From NCBI GenBank assembly GCA_027035575.1, contig JALVUQ010000072.1, positions 1 to 32,634 of the forward strand: a stretch of DNA of 32,634 nucleotides, read 5' to 3'. Below the pieces are notes generated by a model. The model did not search any database, had not been told where the DNA came from, and worked only from the letters and a program-made list of their open reading frames with translations. This stretch comes from Desulfurellales bacterium (GTDB lineage Bacteria; Campylobacterota_A; Desulfurellia; Desulfurellales; Hippeaceae). This document shows, in pieces, positions 22,380-32,444 of the stretch. Within the stretch, counting starts at the first letter, position 1, and each line of letters begins with the position of its first letter. A program made the position numbers and the translations under genes.

Positions 22380-22940
22380 ATGGTTGAAGAATTAAAACGT
22401 TCTGAAGGAGTGCTTGATAATCATAGCGCCGATGAGACAAAAAAAGAGCCGGATTCCTGCTCCGATATAGATGCCCGCTGTATAACATCTCATATTTGCT
22501 ATAAATACTCATCTATGGTTATGGCAGGACTTATCGAAGCAATAGACTACTTTGCAGGAAGCCAAGGACCAAAGGTTTTGGTTAGAATATTGGCAAAAAG
22601 CATACCTTCACAAATGATGGAGGCTTTGGGCGTTAAACCTGAGAATATGAAAGACTTTTCCGAAGAAGATATGATTAAGCTGCTACCCGAAATGATAGCT
22701 CAAAAAGGCGGACCTAAGATAAAGATTGAAAAAAGCAGTGAAGGTGAGTATAAATTCGAACTTGAAGAGTGTCATTTTTTGCCCTATTCAAAATCCGAAG
22801 GGTTTTGTAATGTTACTGCGGGATTAATGCTTGGGTTTGCTCAATTTTTATCAGGCAAACCTATGGATATAAAGGAGATTCAAACAATTGCACACGGCGG
22901 CAGCAGGTGTGAATTTATGGCAACCGTTAAGAAATTGTAG
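22380..22940 (+). CDS. V4R-like small-molecule-binding domain protein
   Basis: A 186-residue cytoplasmic protein with no membrane segment. The C-terminal third resembles the V4R (4-vinyl reductase) domain: ECHFLPYSKSEGFCNVTAG, then a helix LMLGFAQFLSG, then AHGGSRCEFMATV, with Cys residues at the positions typical of metal- or ligand-binding V4R proteins. The first 30 residues are charged and probably disordered. It has a GGAGG ribosome site and precedes ald by 29 nt. V4R proteins often act as ligand sensors or in tetrapyrrole or hydrocarbon metabolism; the function here is not known. The V4R call is from pattern recognition only. Confidence 0.55.
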   Translation: MVEELKRSEGVLDNHSADETKKEPDSCSDIDARCITSHICYKYSSMVMAGLIEAIDYFAGSQGPKVLVRILAKSIPSQMMEALGVKPENMKDFSEEDMIKLLPEMIAQKGGPKIKIEKSSEGEYKFELEECHFLPYSKSEGFCNVTAGLMLGFAQFLSGKPMDIKEIQTIAHGGSRCEFMATVKKL

Positions 22941-26010: not shown

Positions 26011-26084
26011 CATTTAACCGTTTTTCTTTTCCCAAACACAACAAAATTATATTGCTCATAATGTCATTCACTTTCTTTATTTGC

Positions 26085-26358
26085 TAGCAACACAATTTTA
26101 TTGTGTTATGGTTTTTGAAATATAGCTTTTTCTTTCAATTAAAAACAAAAGGATAAGTAAGGGTTTATTGCTCTTGCACCTCTTCGCTCTTTTATTGAAT
26201 CCAAAATTATCTTTTTGCCTGTGCGTTTCATATTTTACCAACCACTAACCACCAACTTCCAACCGCTAATTACAGCCACTATTTACTGCTCGCCCATTCG
26301 ACAACTTAACCCTTAATCATCTTTCACACTTCGTAGGTGTGAAAAAAAAGGGGGGGGG
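26085..26358. repeat. 274-bp long direct repeat, copy A
   Basis: This copy is identical to 31891-32164 except at three positions, with no gaps. It contains, in order: a hairpin with arms AACACAAT/ATTGTGTT (26089-26107), a non-coding middle, a heptamer array (26234-26310), a hairpin TTTCACAC/GTGTGAAA (26322-26344), and an A8 G9 tract (26342-26358). It lies just downstream of the five-gene minus-strand operon. The whole gap 25822-26419 holds no gene; it consists of the htpX promoter, heptamer island 1, this repeat, and an inverted repeat at 26362-26406. Confidence 0.95.
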
Positions 26359-26419: not shown

Positions 26420-27088
26420 CTATTTCACATTTTTTAATTTTTCAAAATAGTATATTTTTGCTATTACGTTTTGCGGGTCTAATACGAGAATGTTGCCAAA
26501 TACACTTTTTGCGTATTTTTTTCTACCCTCTGCGTAATAGATAAGCCCGAGCTGATCTAAAAAATTTACATCCGTAGGATAAAGAGCAAGCATTTTATTA
26601 ACAACCTTTTTTGCCTGAGTCAGTTTGTTCTCTTCTCTGAGTGCTATAGATAGTCTCAAATTAGCATAGTAGTTATAGTAATCAACCTTTATAACTTTAT
26701 ACATTAAGCTTTCAACGCTGCTCCATCTTTTTTGAGCCATCAACGGTAAAGCCATTCCGAGTGCAGGTTCTATTGAGGAAGGTATAATGTATTCGGCATT
26801 TTTATAGTATTTTATTGAATTAGCATATTTTTTATCTAAGTAGTACAGCCAACCGAGTCTTAAATTCACCGTGTATCCTTGCGGATATTTTTCATAAACA
26901 GGCATAATAGACCTAATGGCATCTTTACTATCCCCCATTTTTTCATAGTTGTATGACTGGTAGTAAGCTTTAACTACCTGCTTGTTGCTGAGATTAACAC
27001 ACGATGCCTGGAAAGGAAGCAGAGAAAAAATAAGCAGCCACACTAAAGATTTTTTGTGTTCAATTTGCGTTAAAATAGCTTTAGCCAT
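26420..27088 (-). CDS. TPR-repeat protein with N-terminal signal or anchor
   Basis: A 222-residue protein. Residues about 14-29 are hydrophobic after a Lys/His-rich start and end in LPFQASC, resembling a signal peptide. The Gln at -3 makes a lipobox imperfect, so lipoprotein processing is uncertain. The rest is helical TPR, with units around NLRLGWLYYLDKKYANSIKYY, ALPLMAQKRWSSVESLMYKV, NLRLSIALREENKLTQAKK and DQLGLIYYAEGRKKYAKSVF. Such proteins act as scaffolds, here probably periplasmic. It overlaps the UT/M23 gene by 8 nt and is the last gene of the operon bounded by the 274-bp repeats. No enzyme activity is expected. Confidence 0.75.
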   Translation of the reverse strand: MAKAILTQIEHKKSLVWLLIFSLLPFQASCVNLSNKQVVKAYYQSYNYEKMGDSKDAIRSIMPVYEKYPQGYTVNLRLGWLYYLDKKYANSIKYYKNAEYIIPSSIEPALGMALPLMAQKRWSSVESLMYKVIKVDYYNYYANLRLSIALREENKLTQAKKVVNKMLALYPTDVNFLDQLGLIYYAEGRKKYAKSVFGNILVLDPQNVIAKIYYFEKLKNVK

Positions 27089-29162
27089 TTTCGCACCTCC
27101 TCAAAATAATTTTTGTTTTTTTCGATTCTACCGCTAATGTTGAAAATCCTTTTGTTTCATGTAGTTTAACATAGGTTTTAATATCGTAGGAATCTATGAA
27201 GCCCGTGATTTCATCTTCACTTGTAAATTTATACATACCTTTTATGATACAATCCGAAGGTCTGAAGTAGCTTTTCAAAAGCATAATATCTTTTTTAACT
27301 CCCTTAAGTACCAAATGTGTCGGAAGACAGTCTTCCCACTTTATTCCCTGTTTGTAGCCTAAAGGTACCCTTGGAAGAGCAAGAAAAAGAGATTTGAGTT
27401 CTTGGTCTAATTTGCCCTCAATTCTGTTTATGTAGAATGTTCCTTCCCACTTGGTAAAGTATAATCTGCTATTTTCTCCTTTAAAATAGAACTCGCCGTT
27501 ACTGTCCATTTTTACGGATAATTGAATGTTTTTTAATTTAGAGCCGTTTTTCTCAACTTCAAACTCAATCTCTTCGTCCAATAAAAATGACATTTTAAAA
27601 TCCATAATTTTGTCTGTGAATACAGGTGTTAATTTTTCATTTTCTTTTGGAATATCATTGGAGTGATAGTTATTATCCGCATCGATGTATTGAACAAAGC
27701 TAAAAGGAACCGTAGGAGCACCTATGTTGTTTGCCAGTTGCGTATGTACATGCAGATGAGGCTGTGGGGAATATCCTGAATTACCGCATAAAGCCAATAC
27801 TTTGCCTCTTTCCACCCAATCACCCTCTTGTACCTTTACAGAGCCTTTTAACAGGTGGCACATCAGAACATAAAATCCTCTTTCATCATAAATCAGGATG
27901 AGATTTCCCCAGTTATTGTCCTTGTTTATTGTTCCTATAGGGTTGTCATCTATATCATTAACTATTTTAATCACTCTTCCTCTGACAGGTGAAAGAACAG
28001 GCTTCCTAAAACAGTAATAATTATCTGTAATTTTTTCATTTTCGCTGTATGTATCACCGTTTTCATCCGTTATTACGAAATCTACGGCATACATCCAGGC
28101 ACCTTTGTGAGTCCACTTACCGTTTATTCCCTGCCAGACGGACCACTCACCTGAGAAAGGCAGAAACAGTGTCCTGTATGTTCCCTGAAATCTATTATTG
28201 TAAGTTAAATAGTGGTCTAACGTTTTTTCGGGTGTTCCTCTATAGTATTTTGTTATTAATGGGAAATTCAACAATCCCAACACGTATAAAAACATCATAG
28301 AAACAGCATTAAAGGGTAGGGTAAAAACAGGGACACCGTATTGGTACCATATTTTCTCAATTGCGTATAAAAAAACGGAAGATGTTATCACGGCGGTCAT
28401 TGATATTGCATAACTTTTTATGTTAGGTATTAAAAATACCCCACCAAGAGCCATAGCTATCAGTATAAAGTTAAAAGAGTTTATATTGCTAAATGCTTGT
28501 GCAAAAGAGCCGGTAAAAGCGGCAACTGTTAAACTCCCCGCAAGATATCCTGATAAAGCCAGAAAAAACAGTATTCGTGATACGAATAATATGGCTACCA
28601 GTATAACAAAACCGCTTATAATGTTTGGAAGAAAAACAATAGCTCCCAAAGACCTCGTAAATCCGCTAAACCATAAAGGCAGTTGGTTTATCCAGCTAAA
28701 AAGCGGAGTTTGGGGATAAAATCCGTTCACAAACAGGTTGCTGTATTGACTTGATGCCAAATATACTACACAGCTCACAATAACAAAAGGCAAACTCAGT
28801 GCGGGTAGTCTTAAATACTGATACAATATGGTAGCCAAGCCAAATGTAATTAAAAATGTAACGACACCCGATATTGATACAAGGAAGAGGGTTAAAAGGT
28901 TAAACTTAAATAGATAACCTATGGATAAACCCACCAACAACGGATTGTATGTATAAAATCCCGATGAAAGAAATTGCTCTTGCATACCTAAAAATTTTGC
29001 AAAAATATAAGAACTGACAACGCACAGAAGACCTGAGATGCCGACATTCGGATTGATAAATGAGAGAATTAAAAGAAATATACCTACAAAATATTTATCT
29101 ACAAAGAAGATTCCCGCGTAGCTACCTATTATTGATTTTGTAAATTCTTTATAGTTTTTCAT
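27081..29162 (-). CDS. Urea-transporter-like membrane domain fused to M23 metallopeptidase domain
   Basis: A 693-residue fusion. Residues 1-305 are a polytopic membrane domain of the urea transporter (UT) family, seen in GFYTYNPLLVGLSIGYLF near residue 68 and VFTLPFNAVSMMFLYVLG near 280. Residues about 330-480 are an M23/LytM domain with HKG (about 351), an Asp in AVDF (about 360) and HLHVH (about 469-473) as zinc ligands. The core includes RGRVIKIV and GNSGYSPQPHLHVH. The remaining 210 residues are beta-rich and unrecognised. UT channels pass urea or small amides. M23 domains cut peptidoglycan cross-bridges or act as scaffolds. Substrate and activity are unknown. The start overlaps the decarboxylase stop by 4 nt. 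Confidence 0.8.
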   Translation of the reverse strand: MKNYKEFTKSIIGSYAGIFFVDKYFVGIFLLILSFINPNVGISGLLCVVSSYIFAKFLGMQEQFLSSGFYTYNPLLVGLSIGYLFKFNLLTLFLVSISGVVTFLITFGLATILYQYLRLPALSLPFVIVSCVVYLASSQYSNLFVNGFYPQTPLFSWINQLPLWFSGFTRSLGAIVFLPNIISGFVILVAILFVSRILFFLALSGYLAGSLTVAAFTGSFAQAFSNINSFNFILIAMALGGVFLIPNIKSYAISMTAVITSSVFLYAIEKIWYQYGVPVFTLPFNAVSMMFLYVLGLLNFPLITKYYRGTPEKTLDHYLTYNNRFQGTYRTLFLPFSGEWSVWQGINGKWTHKGAWMYAVDFVITDENGDTYSENEKITDNYYCFRKPVLSPVRGRVIKIVNDIDDNPIGTINKDNNWGNLILIYDERGFYVLMCHLLKGSVKVQEGDWVERGKVLALCGNSGYSPQPHLHVHTQLANNIGAPTVPFSFVQYIDADNNYHSNDIPKENEKLTPVFTDKIMDFKMSFLLDEEIEFEVEKNGSKLKNIQLSVKMDSNGEFYFKGENSRLYFTKWEGTFYINRIEGKLDQELKSLFLALPRVPLGYKQGIKWEDCLPTHLVLKGVKKDIMLLKSYFRPSDCIIKGMYKFTSEDEITGFIDSYDIKTYVKLHETKGFSTLAVESKKTKIILRRCENG

Positions 29163-30511
29163 TTATCAAACTTATATCTTTCAGGTAGAATTTCTTGTTC
29201 TATAATATTGTTTATATCTTCTTTTTTCCTGATAAGTTGAGCTTCTCCATCTTCCGATATCATACAGACAGCAGGCCTGTATGTTATAAACTGCATCCAT
29301 TGAGTTACATTGTAAGCACCCACCGGTGAAATTATCAGCTTCATTCCCCTTTCTAACGGCGGCAGATTGACAGATTCATCAATTACATCTATATTCATAC
29401 AAAGCGGACCGTTAATCATGCTGGGTTCTGCCGTACCGCTAACCTCTCTATCCATTTCTATATTGAATTTATACCAAAAAGAGGTGAACAGGCTGTTTAC
29501 ACCGGCATCGATAACATAAGCTCTCGTTCCGTCCGGCAGCCTCTTTATAGCATGCACTGTAGTTATTAAGTAGCCGGTTGTATCCACAATTGCTCTTCCG
29601 GTCTCTAAAATTAGTTTAGGAAAATCGTTTGGTTTTAAACTTTCAAGCAGTGTATCGCATACAGCTTCGGCAAACTCATCTATTGCTGGAACAACAACTT
29701 CAGGTGGAAGATACACGCCCTTTAATCTGTTTTTTGAAGGAAAACCTCCTCCAATATCCAAATACTCTATTTTATAGCTGAATTTATCCTCGATTTTGTA
29801 AGCGAAATCAACCATTTTTTTGACTTCTTGGGCATAGGCACTCGGTTCTAAAATAAAAGTACCTATGTGACAGTGCAGTCCGCTGAGTATTAAATGACCA
29901 CCGTAGCTTATCCTTTTTACGGCGTCCAATGCCTGCCCGCTTTCCAAATTGAATCCGAACCTTGACCATTGAGGGACAATCCCGGTATCCATATTTATTC
30001 TAATGCCGACCTTTATCTTTTTGTTCAGTTTTTTGGCAACATCTTCCAAATCCTGTATTTCTTCAAAGTGGTCTATATTTATCATAGCACCGTCTTCTGC
30101 TGCTTCCTCCAAGCTTTGCATAGATTTAAAAGGACCGTTGTATATTATGTTTCTGCCGTTTATGCCGAGTCTTTTGGCTTTTTTATATTCAAACTCAGAA
30201 ACCACCTCCGCAATAGCACCCTCCTGATGCAAAATGCTGCATATAGCATCAAGGTAATTTGTTTTATAAGACCAGCCGAAGAGTACATTCGGATAGCGAT
30301 TTGAAAATGAGTTATATAATTTTCTGTAACTTTTTCTCAATTCTTTTTCGGAAAAAACAAATAGCGGGCTGCCGTATTGTTCCGCCAATTCTTCAACGGC
30401 AACACCGTCAATATCCCTTCTTATATGTTTAAAAACTCCAGTACCAAATTTATTCATAAATCCTGTTTGTAATTTCTTAATTATGGGTTTTTCATAAATT
30501 TCACTATTCAT
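29159..30511 (-). CDS. PLP-dependent fold-type III decarboxylase (LysA / ornithine decarboxylase superfamily)
   Basis: A 450-residue alanine-racemase-fold decarboxylase. The Schiff-base lysine is K83 in GWSYKTNYL. Other family signatures are GLHCHIG, DIGGGFP, LILETGRAIV, the catalytic Cys segment GPLCMNIDVI and VGAYN near the C-terminus. The family decarboxylates diaminopimelate, carboxynorspermidine, ornithine/arginine or related amino acids; the specificity helix was not assigned. A 30-residue N-terminal extension precedes the barrel. Being wedged between an ATP-grasp ligase and a UT/M23 fusion by 4-nt overlaps on both sides, it is unlikely to be the housekeeping lysA. It may decarboxylate an amino acid or adduct made by the ligase. 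Confidence 0.85.
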   Translation of the reverse strand: MNSEIYEKPIIKKLQTGFMNKFGTGVFKHIRRDIDGVAVEELAEQYGSPLFVFSEKELRKSYRKLYNSFSNRYPNVLFGWSYKTNYLDAICSILHQEGAIAEVVSEFEYKKAKRLGINGRNIIYNGPFKSMQSLEEAAEDGAMINIDHFEEIQDLEDVAKKLNKKIKVGIRINMDTGIVPQWSRFGFNLESGQALDAVKRISYGGHLILSGLHCHIGTFILEPSAYAQEVKKMVDFAYKIEDKFSYKIEYLDIGGGFPSKNRLKGVYLPPEVVVPAIDEFAEAVCDTLLESLKPNDFPKLILETGRAIVDTTGYLITTVHAIKRLPDGTRAYVIDAGVNSLFTSFWYKFNIEMDREVSGTAEPSMINGPLCMNIDVIDESVNLPPLERGMKLIISPVGAYNVTQWMQFITYRPAVCMISEDGEAQLIRKKEDINNIIEQEILPERYKFDK

Positions 30512-31548
30512 AAACTCTCTCCTTTCATTGTGATTTTTTGGAATAAAGATAAATCAGTTACTATATCATATGTGTATCTGACATAAAGTTTACCGGCTTC
30601 ATACTTTTCGGTTTTTTCAAAGTCCATTTCAAATGTTTTTTTAACCATTTTAGCAGGGAGGTTGATGCCCACACCCGTAGCAAAATATATCCAAGCTGGA
30701 AATCTTGGATTTATCTCAATTAGATAAATGTCGTCGCTGTCAACTATACATTCCAGTTCAAATGCTCCTTTCCATTTAGTTTTTTCTGTGAAAGTTTTTG
30801 AAAGCTCAAATAATCCGCCATTTTTAACCGTAACACCTGTCCATATTTTTCCAAGGCTCGTTATCCAGAGCTTTTTTATCGCAACTATGCCTAAATCACC
30901 ACCATCTCCGTCTCCAACGCCAACCACATTCATCTCTTCTCCGCTTACGACCTGTTGAACAATAACCGGATATCCCCATTCCGCCACAATTTTTCTGAAA
31001 AATCCCGCTGCCTCCTGATGAGTGTATGCTCTATATGCTTTATAAAAAGCACCCTTCACCATTATCGGGAGCCCTAACTCCTCAATAGCTTTTGTAAGCT
31101 CGTCATAAGATGTAACCGTTTGGGATTTTGGCGTTTTTATACCAATTTTAGAGCCCATCTCTTTCAATTTTGCTTTGCTTCTCAAAGTGAACTGCTCTTG
31201 GGTAGGTATAAATGTTTTTATGCCCTGTAATTCCAGTTTTTCTTTTGATTTTATAAAAAGTGGCATTTCAGCATCAAGGGTAGGGATTATCATATTTATT
31301 CCCGTTTTATTTTTTATATAAAGCAATCTGCTTATGTATTCTTCTTCAGATGTTGACGGATAGGGTAGAATGAAGGAATTATCAACAAGCCAGTCCATAT
31401 ATATTCCAGGTTCCATTGCATCATAAGCTAATCCGACTATTTCGACATTTAAATCTTGACACTCTTTCAAACTTCTAATTACGCCCATACCCGGTCCGGG
31501 GTTGTCAATAGCATTTATTCCTGTTACGCCAATACATAGCTTTTCCAT
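30508..31548 (-). CDS. ATP-grasp ligase (carbamoyl-phosphate-synthase-like)
   Basis: A 346-residue ATP-grasp protein. The N-terminal pre-ATP-grasp Rossmann part has VTGINAIDNPGPGMGVIRSL. The ATP-binding region includes LPIMVKGAFYKAYRAYT and VIVQQVVSGEEMNVVG. The Mg-binding end is YLIEINPRFPAWIYF. Such enzymes join an acyl phosphate to an amine, making peptide-like or carbamoyl bonds. The ATG at 31548 is preferred to a GTG at 31557 because AAAGGTG is correctly spaced. It follows the PqqD-like gene by 19 nt and overlaps the decarboxylase by 4 nt. The substrate is unknown. Association with a PqqD-like protein hints at a peptide or carrier-bound substrate. Confidence 0.82.
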   Translation of the reverse strand: MEKLCIGVTGINAIDNPGPGMGVIRSLKECQDLNVEIVGLAYDAMEPGIYMDWLVDNSFILPYPSTSEEEYISRLLYIKNKTGINMIIPTLDAEMPLFIKSKEKLELQGIKTFIPTQEQFTLRSKAKLKEMGSKIGIKTPKSQTVTSYDELTKAIEELGLPIMVKGAFYKAYRAYTHQEAAGFFRKIVAEWGYPVIVQQVVSGEEMNVVGVGDGDGGDLGIVAIKKLWITSLGKIWTGVTVKNGGLFELSKTFTEKTKWKGAFELECIVDSDDIYLIEINPRFPAWIYFATGVGINLPAKMVKKTFEMDFEKTEKYEAGKLYVRYTYDIVTDLSLFQKITMKGESL

Positions 31549-31567
31549 TTTTTTCACCTTTACTTAC

Positions 31568-31804
31568 TTATAATAGAGAATGGGTTCTTAATTGTTCCAC
31601 GAAATCCCTGATATCTTTTAAAGCAGCTGAAGTCTCAATGTTAAACCGTTCCGATATAGTTTTTGCTATCTCCTCTTCGCTTTTTCCACTTTTTAACTCA
31701 TTCAATATTAAAACCCCTGTTTTATTCGTTGCATAGCTGCTTCCGGCATAAGGGTCAAAAATAAATCCCTCATCATTTATTGCAAGTTGTTTTAACCTCT
31801 CCAT
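31568..31804 (-). CDS. PqqD-like (RRE-fold) small protein
   Basis: A 78-residue protein that fits the PqqD family: a beta-rich start with FIFDPYAGSSYATNKTGVLI, then helices with LKSGKSEEEIAKTISERFNI and ALKDIRDFVEQL. PqqD-like domains (RiPP recognition elements) hold precursor peptides for modifying enzymes. The ATG at 31804 has a perfect GGAGGTGA ribosome site; the longer start at 31819 lies inside that site and is rejected. It is the first gene of the five-gene operon. No precursor-peptide ORF was found around it, so it may serve a different, non-peptide role. Confidence 0.78.
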   Translation of the reverse strand: MERLKQLAINDEGFIFDPYAGSSYATNKTGVLILNELKSGKSEEEIAKTISERFNIETSAALKDIRDFVEQLRTHSLL

Positions 31805-31865: not shown

Positions 31866-31890
31866 AATTAAAGATACTGTCAACTTTTGA

Positions 31891-32164
31891 TAGCAACACA
31901 ATTTTATTGTGTTATGGTTTTTGAAATATAGCTTTTTCTTTCAATTAAAAACAAAAGGATAAGTAAGGGTTTATTGCTCTTACACCTCTTCGCTCTTTTA
32001 TTGAATCCAAAATTATCTTTTTGCCTGTGCGTTTCATATTTTACCAACCACTAACCACCAACTTCCAACCGCTAATTACAGCCACTATTTACTGCTCGCC
32101 CATTCGACAATTTAACCCTTAACCATCTTTCACACTTCGTAGGTGTGAAAAAAAAGGGGGGGGG
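31891..32164. repeat. 274-bp long direct repeat, copy B
   Basis: Same orientation and length as 26085-26358; the three differences are G/A, C/T and T/C substitutions. Internal hairpins, heptamer array (32040-32116), TTTCACAC/GTGTGAAA hairpin (32128-32150) and A8 G9 tract (32148-32164) are conserved. The repeat starts 7 nt upstream of the TTGACA of the PqqD-like operon, so it bounds the operon on its promoter side. Confidence 0.95.
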
Positions 32165-32227: not shown

Positions 32228-32444
32228 GTAATGTCATTTAATTTCTTTAAATGCTATCAAAACAATTTTGATACCGACATAACAGATATATTTGATATTT
32301 TTATTTTTCCGAAGAAAGTTGTTTCTGTAAAAACGTTCTTTATTTGTTAGTTACCATCCGCTATTCACCAATCACTAATTACCGGCCACCAATTCCCAAT
32401 TCACCACTCAACCTCTTTTCACACCTACGAAGTGTGAAAAGAGG
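32228..32444. repeat. Diverged relative of the 274-bp repeat (element C)
   Basis: The segment shares three parts with copy A and its left flank. First is AATGTCATT plus a T-rich stretch leading into an 8-bp-stem hairpin (TATCAAAA/TTTTGATA, 32255-32273). Second is a heptamer array (32350-32412). Third is a hairpin with a 13-bp perfect stem (32412-32424 with 32432-32444) whose core is the copy A hairpin in reverse orientation. The gap 31805-32577 contains no convincing gene; it holds the operon promoter, copy B and this element. Confidence 0.55.

Follow-up and report, generated by a model that had tools for sequence, protein, structure and literature searches.

Discrete RiPP recognition elements (RREs; RiPP, ribosomally synthesized and post-translationally modified peptide) of lasso peptide pathways recognize the leader motif [Y/W]xxPx[LVIFA] (PMC13381572). 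In LppB, D70 binds the Tyr of this motif and N33 the kink at its Pro, with pockets formed by F74, M78 and L83; PbaB1 carries G42 and Q79 at the positions of N33 and D70 and lines its pockets with F83, L87 and L92 (PMC13381572). A degenerate leader form, hydrophobic-xxP, has also been noted (PMC12710340). Among decarboxylases of the alanine racemase (AR) fold, FigC, SbnH, AcsE, MccE and BtrK have conjugated amino acids as their substrates (PMC7857480). Here we analyze an operon that unites relatives of both groups, located in a 32,634-nucleotide contig (JALVUQ010000072.1, hereafter the window) of the 1.72-Mb genome of a Desulfurellales bacterium (GCA_027035575.1). Its five genes encode a PqqD-like RRE, an ATP-grasp ligase, a pyridoxal phosphate (PLP)-dependent decarboxylase, a urea-transporter-like channel fused to an M23 peptidase fold (UT-M23) and a TPR protein. 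We propose that they form part of a conserved small-molecule pathway assembled by the RRE, a reading whose chances we consider about even.

The gene set and its recurrence across phyla

Inspection of the open reading frames (ORFs) in the window places all five genes on the minus strand, between positions 26420 and 31804. The first encodes a discrete RRE of 78 aa (31568..31804; its ATG at 31804 is preceded by GGAGGTGAT), which matches Pfam PqqD (PF05402) with 46.4 bits against a gathering cut-off of 23.4. The second encodes the 349-aa ligase (30508..31557 from a GTG, with an alternative ATG at 31548), a CPS/PylC-like ATP-grasp protein in Pfam and NCBIfam (ATPgrasp_Ter, 33.7 bits; cut-off 29.1), and the third the 450-aa AR-fold decarboxylase (29159..30511; Orn_Arg_deC_N, 111.5 bits), in which homology identifies K83 as the PLP lysine. 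The UT-M23 gene (27081..29162) combines Pfam UT (PF03253, 224.4 bits; cut-off 25) with M23 (PF01551, 43.7 bits; cut-off 28.7), and the last gene (26420..27088) encodes a 222-aa protein with Pfam TPR matches and a hydrophobic, signal-like N-terminal segment, as in a secreted protein. The ATP-grasp/decarboxylase, decarboxylase/UT-M23 and UT-M23/TPR junctions overlap by 4, 4 and 8 nt, and the gap between RRE and ligase is 19 nt with the ATG start or 10 nt with the GTG start. A preliminary description of the locus, which had reported five ORFs with overlaps of 4-8 nt and one 19-nt gap, agrees with these positions and with the Pfam and NCBIfam assignments.

Scanning about 85,000 species genomes with the decarboxylase as seed yielded 30 loci, and in almost all sufficiently long ones the order was PqqD-like, ATP-grasp, decarboxylase, UT-M23 and then, behind an additional gene, TPR, the TPR protein being a conserved partner in most complete loci. 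The same ordered set was also present in further genomes outside the seeded scan. Carriers belong to Desulfurellaceae, Desulfofervidaceae, Desulfurobacteriaceae, Hydrogenothermaceae, Aquificaceae and Thermodesulfobacterium, as well as to Nitrospinia, Calditrichota, Gemmatimonadetes, Lentisphaerae, Verrucomicrobia and Campylobacterales. Recurrence of the ordered five-gene set is far above chance. Two exceptions were seen: a Nitrospinia locus (L032) in which the UT-M23 gene is not adjacent to the enzyme genes, and a Methylophaga locus (L042), a distant match of 35% identity that has only a decarboxylase, without the tail discussed below. Two further loci (L050 and L058) have an intact ligase and broken decarboxylase and UT-M23 frames, either pseudogenes or sequencing errors, and because of these frames they were left out as intact examples.

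The ligase and the UT-M23 protein also co-occur at the level of whole genomes. In Campylobacterota, 16 of 298 genomes carry the ligase and the same 16 carry UT-M23, two of the latter as broken frames and with four additional matches that cover the M23 domain only; in Aquificota (136 genomes), 40 carry both, 2 and 4 carry a single one and 90 carry neither (Fisher p of 8e-27 and 2e-27, respectively, values that ignore shared ancestry). In Verrucomicrobiota, both are found in the same 6 of 241 genomes, and seven further matches cover the M23 domain only. The association persists where the genes are unlinked: in one Aquificota genome (G460), about 195 kb of a single contig separate the enzyme genes from the UT-M23/porin module, and another (G458) has the two modules on different contigs. 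We infer from this persistence that the link is functional and not mere neighborhood. The prospect, raised in the preliminary description, that the five families rarely co-occur elsewhere is thus countered by near-perfect co-occurrence in three phyla, and its view that an unnamed set unites a peptide-binding fold, a ligase, a decarboxylase and a channel is upheld, in that the set is a real, conserved and uncharacterized system. PADLOC models of anti-phage defense gave no match to it.

The RRE and the leader-like tail of the decarboxylase

The nearest solved chains to the PqqD-like protein are the lasso RREs TfuB1 (6jx3, E-value 4e-10) and TbiB1 (5v1u/5v1v). An ungapped HMMER alignment to PbaB1 (9x90) equates D64 with Q79 and F68 with F83, and predicts a YxxP pocket composed of N27, D64, F68, L72 and L77, so that counterparts of LppB Asn33, Asp70 and Phe74 are present as N27, D64 and F68. 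D64, F68 and L72 do not vary among 22 aligned RREs, and N27 and L77 hardly do. The codons from D64, the predicted Tyr-binding Asp, to F68, the predicted pocket-dividing Phe, occupy 31601..31615 on the minus strand.

A candidate ligand is encoded within the same operon. Residues Y6-K21 of the decarboxylase (YEKPIIKKLQTGFMNK; 30449..30496, minus strand) form a leader-like N-terminal tail with a Y-x-K-P-x-I motif, which fits the [Y/W]xxPx[LVIFA] motif of discrete lasso RREs. The motif, followed three residues further by Leu, Ile or Val, is found in 43 distinct tails, a set that was gathered with the YxKPxI pattern itself; as an unselected check, it is missing from none of the intact N-termini among the first 30 operon decarboxylases, and the extension is absent from the LysA N-termini inspected. 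Three divergent Verrucomicrobiota clusters have the tails FEPPRL, LEPPRL and FEAPRI, which still fit the hydrophobic-xxP form. A Tyr tail is paired with Asp64 of the RRE in 46 of 46 loci, and all three loci with a Phe or Leu tail have lost the Asp, position 64 being Gly, Ser or Ala. This pairing would fit a contact between Asp64 and the hydroxyl of the Tyr.

A search of 41 loci, extending 6 kb from the RRE, yielded no short YxxP ORF that is conserved. Of the 119 short YxxP ORFs considered as separate precursor peptides, those that recur lie antisense to conserved genes or belong to the TPR gene, and this possibility was rejected. Because of the lasso-RRE homology, the conserved pocket, the tail motif, the Tyr/Asp pairing and this lack of a precursor, we infer that the RRE binds the decarboxylase through the enzyme's N-terminal tail, a conclusion drawn from sequence comparison. 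The peptide-binding fold assigned to the PqqD-like protein in the preliminary description stands; its ligand is most likely the decarboxylase tail and not a carrier or RiPP precursor. The C-terminus of the RRE, considered as a carrier site, was rejected since it is not conserved.

ATP-grasp enzymes and decarboxylases are both found in RiPP pathways. RiPP clusters are moreover the best-known setting of discrete RREs (PMC7470986), and the operon could accordingly be read as a RiPP-like pathway in which the RRE serves a precursor encoded elsewhere, the ligase and decarboxylase modify that precursor, and the tail only mimics a leader or regulates the RRE. We regard this as rather improbable, given the missing YxxP peptide near the RRE, a decarboxylase pocket that is almost invariant, unlike those of enzymes serving variable cores (see below), and the lack of an Asn-synthase-like lasso cyclase in the ORF lists, which were checked by inspection only.

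The tail might, beyond docking, also act as a covalent carrier: the RRE would present it, the ligase would load it with an amino acid, for example on the Lys at +14/+15 after the Tyr, the enzyme would decarboxylate the cargo, and the cytosolic M23 domain would free the product where the UT channel opens. This extension, which we judge very improbable, would if true describe an enzyme that serves as its own carrier, whether by descent from RiPP leaders or by convergence with them. Lys at +14/+15 is conserved in 43 of 43 main-family tails; in the three divergent Verrucomicrobiota tails the pair is replaced by Asn-Pro, which weakens the strict form of an invariant tail Lys as the carrier site. 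Leaving carriage aside, docking of the tail by the RRE would mean that RREs, known as binders of RiPP leaders, also assemble metabolic enzymes through leader-like tails, and that many 'orphan' RREs could be read from the YxxP tails of neighboring enzymes.

Enzymes, channel and envelope proteins

The best solved homologue of the decarboxylase profile is 7kh2, an N-citrylornithine decarboxylase (1e-79), ahead of diaminopimelate decarboxylase (4e-59). The protein scores below the LysA model TIGR01048 (234.8 vs 297.9 bits) and below the FslC/FigC model NF041039 (246.9 vs 500 bits). The possibility, pointed out in the preliminary description, that it is the only LysA of the genome was tested and rejected: the true LysA is a second decarboxylase, on a separate contig (C86) beside dapF, dapA and dapB, and a second LysA-like decarboxylase, complete or partial, likewise exists in the majority of 20 further genomes that carry the system. 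In a tree, the family is a cluster distinct from LysA, and a long branch between the two leads to the one FigC sequence included. The active-site signature T343-W346-Y347-C371-M372-N373-I374-D375-Q404 is identical in 38 of 40 family members. At two of these positions, LysA enzymes from genomes that carry the system have Arg (343) and Glu (372, directly after the catalytic Cys, in CES), in all 11 LysA sequences compared, against Thr343 and Met372 in the family. Residue mapping onto FigC indicates that the PLP Lys, Glu287, Arg290, Thr327, Tyr331, Met355 and Tyr383 are kept, and that the citrate contacts His357 and Arg387 are replaced by Ile374 and Gln404, and Thr330 by Trp346. A citryl conjugate or siderophore substrate was rejected on account of these citrate-contact residues. 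With both LysA- and citrate-specific residues replaced, the substrate is probably neither meso-diaminopimelate nor a citryl conjugate, and the near-invariant signature suggests that nearly the whole family, across phyla, probably shares the same conjugated amino acid as substrate.

The ligase retains K168 and E281/N283 invariantly in 20 homologues, and its relation to CPS- and PylC-like enzymes, according to Pfam, NCBIfam and profile comparison, is remote. PylC couples an acyl group to the side chain of lysine. Side-chain acylation of this type would keep the alpha-amino acid available to the decarboxylase.

The AlphaFold2 model of the UT-M23 protein is confident (mean predicted local distance difference test score, pLDDT, of 88.8). 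Its UT channel domain (residues 10-294; 28281..29135, minus strand), delimited by PF03253, the model and Foldseek, has dvUT (3k3g, 2e-15) as its top Foldseek match. The M23 zinc-peptidase domain (residues 340-495; 27678..28145, minus strand) matches LytM, lysostaphin and DipM, and its zinc ligands and second active-site His (H352, D361, H436, H469 and H471) are invariant in 17 of 17 sequences. It is followed by a beta-rich C-terminal domain with confident predicted secondary structure (residues 500-693; 27084..27665, minus strand), for which no Pfam match was obtained. In the pore alignment, Ser/Thr is retained at the positions of dvUT T130 and T294, presumably pore residues, and Ala is found at that of E187. 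The position of Q24, which together with E187 we take to be a urea filter residue, is acidic in 71% of sequences. Since these pore residues differ from those of urea channels, urea itself is doubtful as the permeant.

M23 enzymes normally act outside the cytoplasm, and other UT proteins have both ends inside (N-in/C-in). In UT-M23, Lys and Arg residues are concentrated after the tenth transmembrane segment (about 5.5) and gathered also at the N-terminus, compared with 0.5 in the loop between the two halves. This positive-charge pattern predicts that both ends, and with them the M23 domain, are cytoplasmic. The preliminary description had proposed that a carrier- or peptide-bound amine is synthesized, loses its carboxyl group and leaves through UT to the envelope, and had called M23 a wall-peptidase fold; on this reading M23 would act there on the cell wall. 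The joint encoding of UT, M23, TPR and usually a porin, the invariant zinc ligands and the usual extracytoplasmic site of M23 enzymes would suit such a scheme; the N-in/C-in charge pattern, the absence of a conserved carrier attachment site at the RRE C-terminus and the passive nature of UT and OmpG-like porin channels argue against it. We therefore consider this scheme as a whole unlikely, and M23 unlikely to be a wall peptidase. Export of an amine through UT is possible, and so is uptake.

The same passive channels, combined with a probably cytosolic M23 domain, are compatible with salvage, whereby a small amide- or urea-like solute would enter through the porin and UT and be processed by cytosolic M23, the ligase and the decarboxylase. 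In two Campylobacterota, amt-glnK-like genes adjoin the cluster, although in convergent orientation. Inspection of the loci revealed neither catabolic nor urease genes, and the named AR-fold relatives of this branch are biosynthetic (PMC7857480), so that we regard salvage as quite improbable too.

At most loci, a secreted protein of 270-310 aa is encoded beside UT-M23 or near the cluster. It has no significant Pfam or NCBIfam match, and AlphaFold2 folds it confidently (pLDDT 90) into a 14-strand barrel that, among solved structures, most resembles the porins OmpG and CymA; in one locus (L031) it is fused to TPR repeats. A 14-strand outer-membrane porin is thus usually the sixth part of the system. 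A porin elsewhere in the genome of the window was sought and none was found. In many Campylobacterota (L052-L064), a protein of about 197 aa with an OmpR-type DNA-binding domain is encoded, in several of them between TPR and porin.

Proposed pathway, genomic setting and comparison with known systems

Taken together, these observations are consistent with a pathway of four steps. The discrete RRE would first clamp the YxKPxI tail of the decarboxylase in the manner of a lasso RRE and its leader, a step for which sequence argues strongly, in a complex that presumably includes the ATP-grasp ligase. The ligase would then convert an amino acid into an amide conjugate, probably on the side-chain amine and with the alpha-amino acid end left free, and the decarboxylase, by analogy with its FigC-type relatives, would strip the alpha-carboxyl from the conjugate to yield an amine. 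In the last and most tentative step, the product or a precursor would pass the inner membrane through the UT channel, at whose mouth the cytoplasmic M23 zinc domain may hydrolyze or release the product. The secreted TPR protein and the 14-strand porin, present in most species and not in the genome of the window, would complete a passive envelope route.

Several observations weigh against this scheme. The decarboxylase signature deviates slightly in two members, L034 (CLTLA) and L102 (Phe for Tyr347), and the pore of the channel has Glu for dvUT Q24 and Ala for E187. The predicted topology of the M23 domain rests on charge bias and homology, and the joint loss of D64 and the tail Tyr comes from one divergent clade and may be a single event. 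A genome search found no porin in the genome of the window or in three relatives, and neither TPR nor porin lies beside the divergent Verrucomicrobiota clusters. Such absences indicate that the envelope part is not essential everywhere. If the RRE-assembled pathway is nevertheless correct, a chemically constant small molecule is made in many phyla, several of them comprising hydrothermal-vent chemolithotrophs, and is accompanied by a urea-type channel of its own, to which a zinc-peptidase fold is fused.

The operon of the window is bracketed by two copies of a 279-nt direct repeat that are 99% identical and spaced 5806 nt apart, one downstream (26080..26358) and one upstream (31886..32164); recombination between them would delete the five genes, and may bear on the patchy presence of the system in relatives. 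The upstream copy holds a 21-bp palindrome, the perfect inverted repeat TTCACACCTACGAAGTGTGAA, which a sequence search located at 26323-26343, 32129-32149 and 32418-32438. It belongs to an intergenic repeat family with 13 copies in the genome at no more than one mismatch and none in a backward control. Elsewhere in the window, ORF translations alone suggest, between 4290 and 18058, a CooS-like CO dehydrogenase, a CooC-like ATPase, NuoE/F/G-like subunits, a nickel transporter-like gene and an [NiFe] hydrogenase with Hyp maturation genes. At 22380-22940, a V4R/MetOD1-like protein, possibly a small-molecule sensor with Pfam matches below the cut-offs, adjoins alanine dehydrogenase. The surroundings differ in other genomes. 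In the divergent Verrucomicrobiota (L099-L101), the four core genes are preceded by an ECF-sigma-like gene and a Ser/Thr kinase-TPR protein, and in L099 also by an FHA protein gene, with no porin seen nearby, as in a branch of the system under different control. TAXI-TRAP transporter-like genes or guaB adjoin several Campylobacterota clusters (L052-L064), and in one relative (L010, 5275-8430) polysaccharide-deacetylase-like, glycosyltransferase-like and hemB-like genes directly follow the operon, which they do not at that place in the window.

Compared with described systems, the lasso RRE/leader pairs (TfuB1, TbiB1 and PbaB1; LppB of LPPs) share the discrete RRE, the Asn/Asp/Phe of the YxxP pocket and the YxxPx[I/L] motif. 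Here, however, the motif is carried by a 450-aa decarboxylase and not by a precursor peptide, of which none was found; no lasso cyclase or protease was seen on inspection of the ORF lists, and the RRE scores below the lasso PqqD model NF033530 (46 vs 70 bits). The PqqD fold is also shared with the PqqD proteins of HPr-rel-A (TIGR04353) and PQQ (TIGR03859), whose partner genes were not seen here and whose cut-offs the RRE does not reach (30.5 vs 35 and 17.3 vs 46 bits, respectively). FigC/FslC of rhizoferrin biosynthesis represent the same AR-fold branch, with a CM..D motif, equivalents of the PLP Lys, Glu, Arg and Tyr331, and a ligase partner, whereas the present family has Ile and Gln for H357 and R387, Trp for T330, and an ATP-grasp enzyme in place of an NIS synthetase. 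For butirosin, we take BtrJ to be the ligase partner. The pair BtrJ/BtrK likewise combines a ligase with an AR-fold decarboxylase acting on a tethered amino acid (for BtrK, PMC7857480), but no acyl-carrier protein was found here. The channel shares with dvUT (3k3g) the UT fold and Ser/Thr at the T130/T294 positions, and differs from it in the replacement of E187 by Ala and in the added C-terminal M23 and beta domains. A search of the open-access literature, with subscription literature outside its scope, returned nothing relevant on sets of PqqD, ATP-grasp and decarboxylase or of UT and M23. Its parts all come from known families, and the set qualifies neither as a lasso pathway nor as a PQQ, HPr-rel-A, LysA or FslC system.

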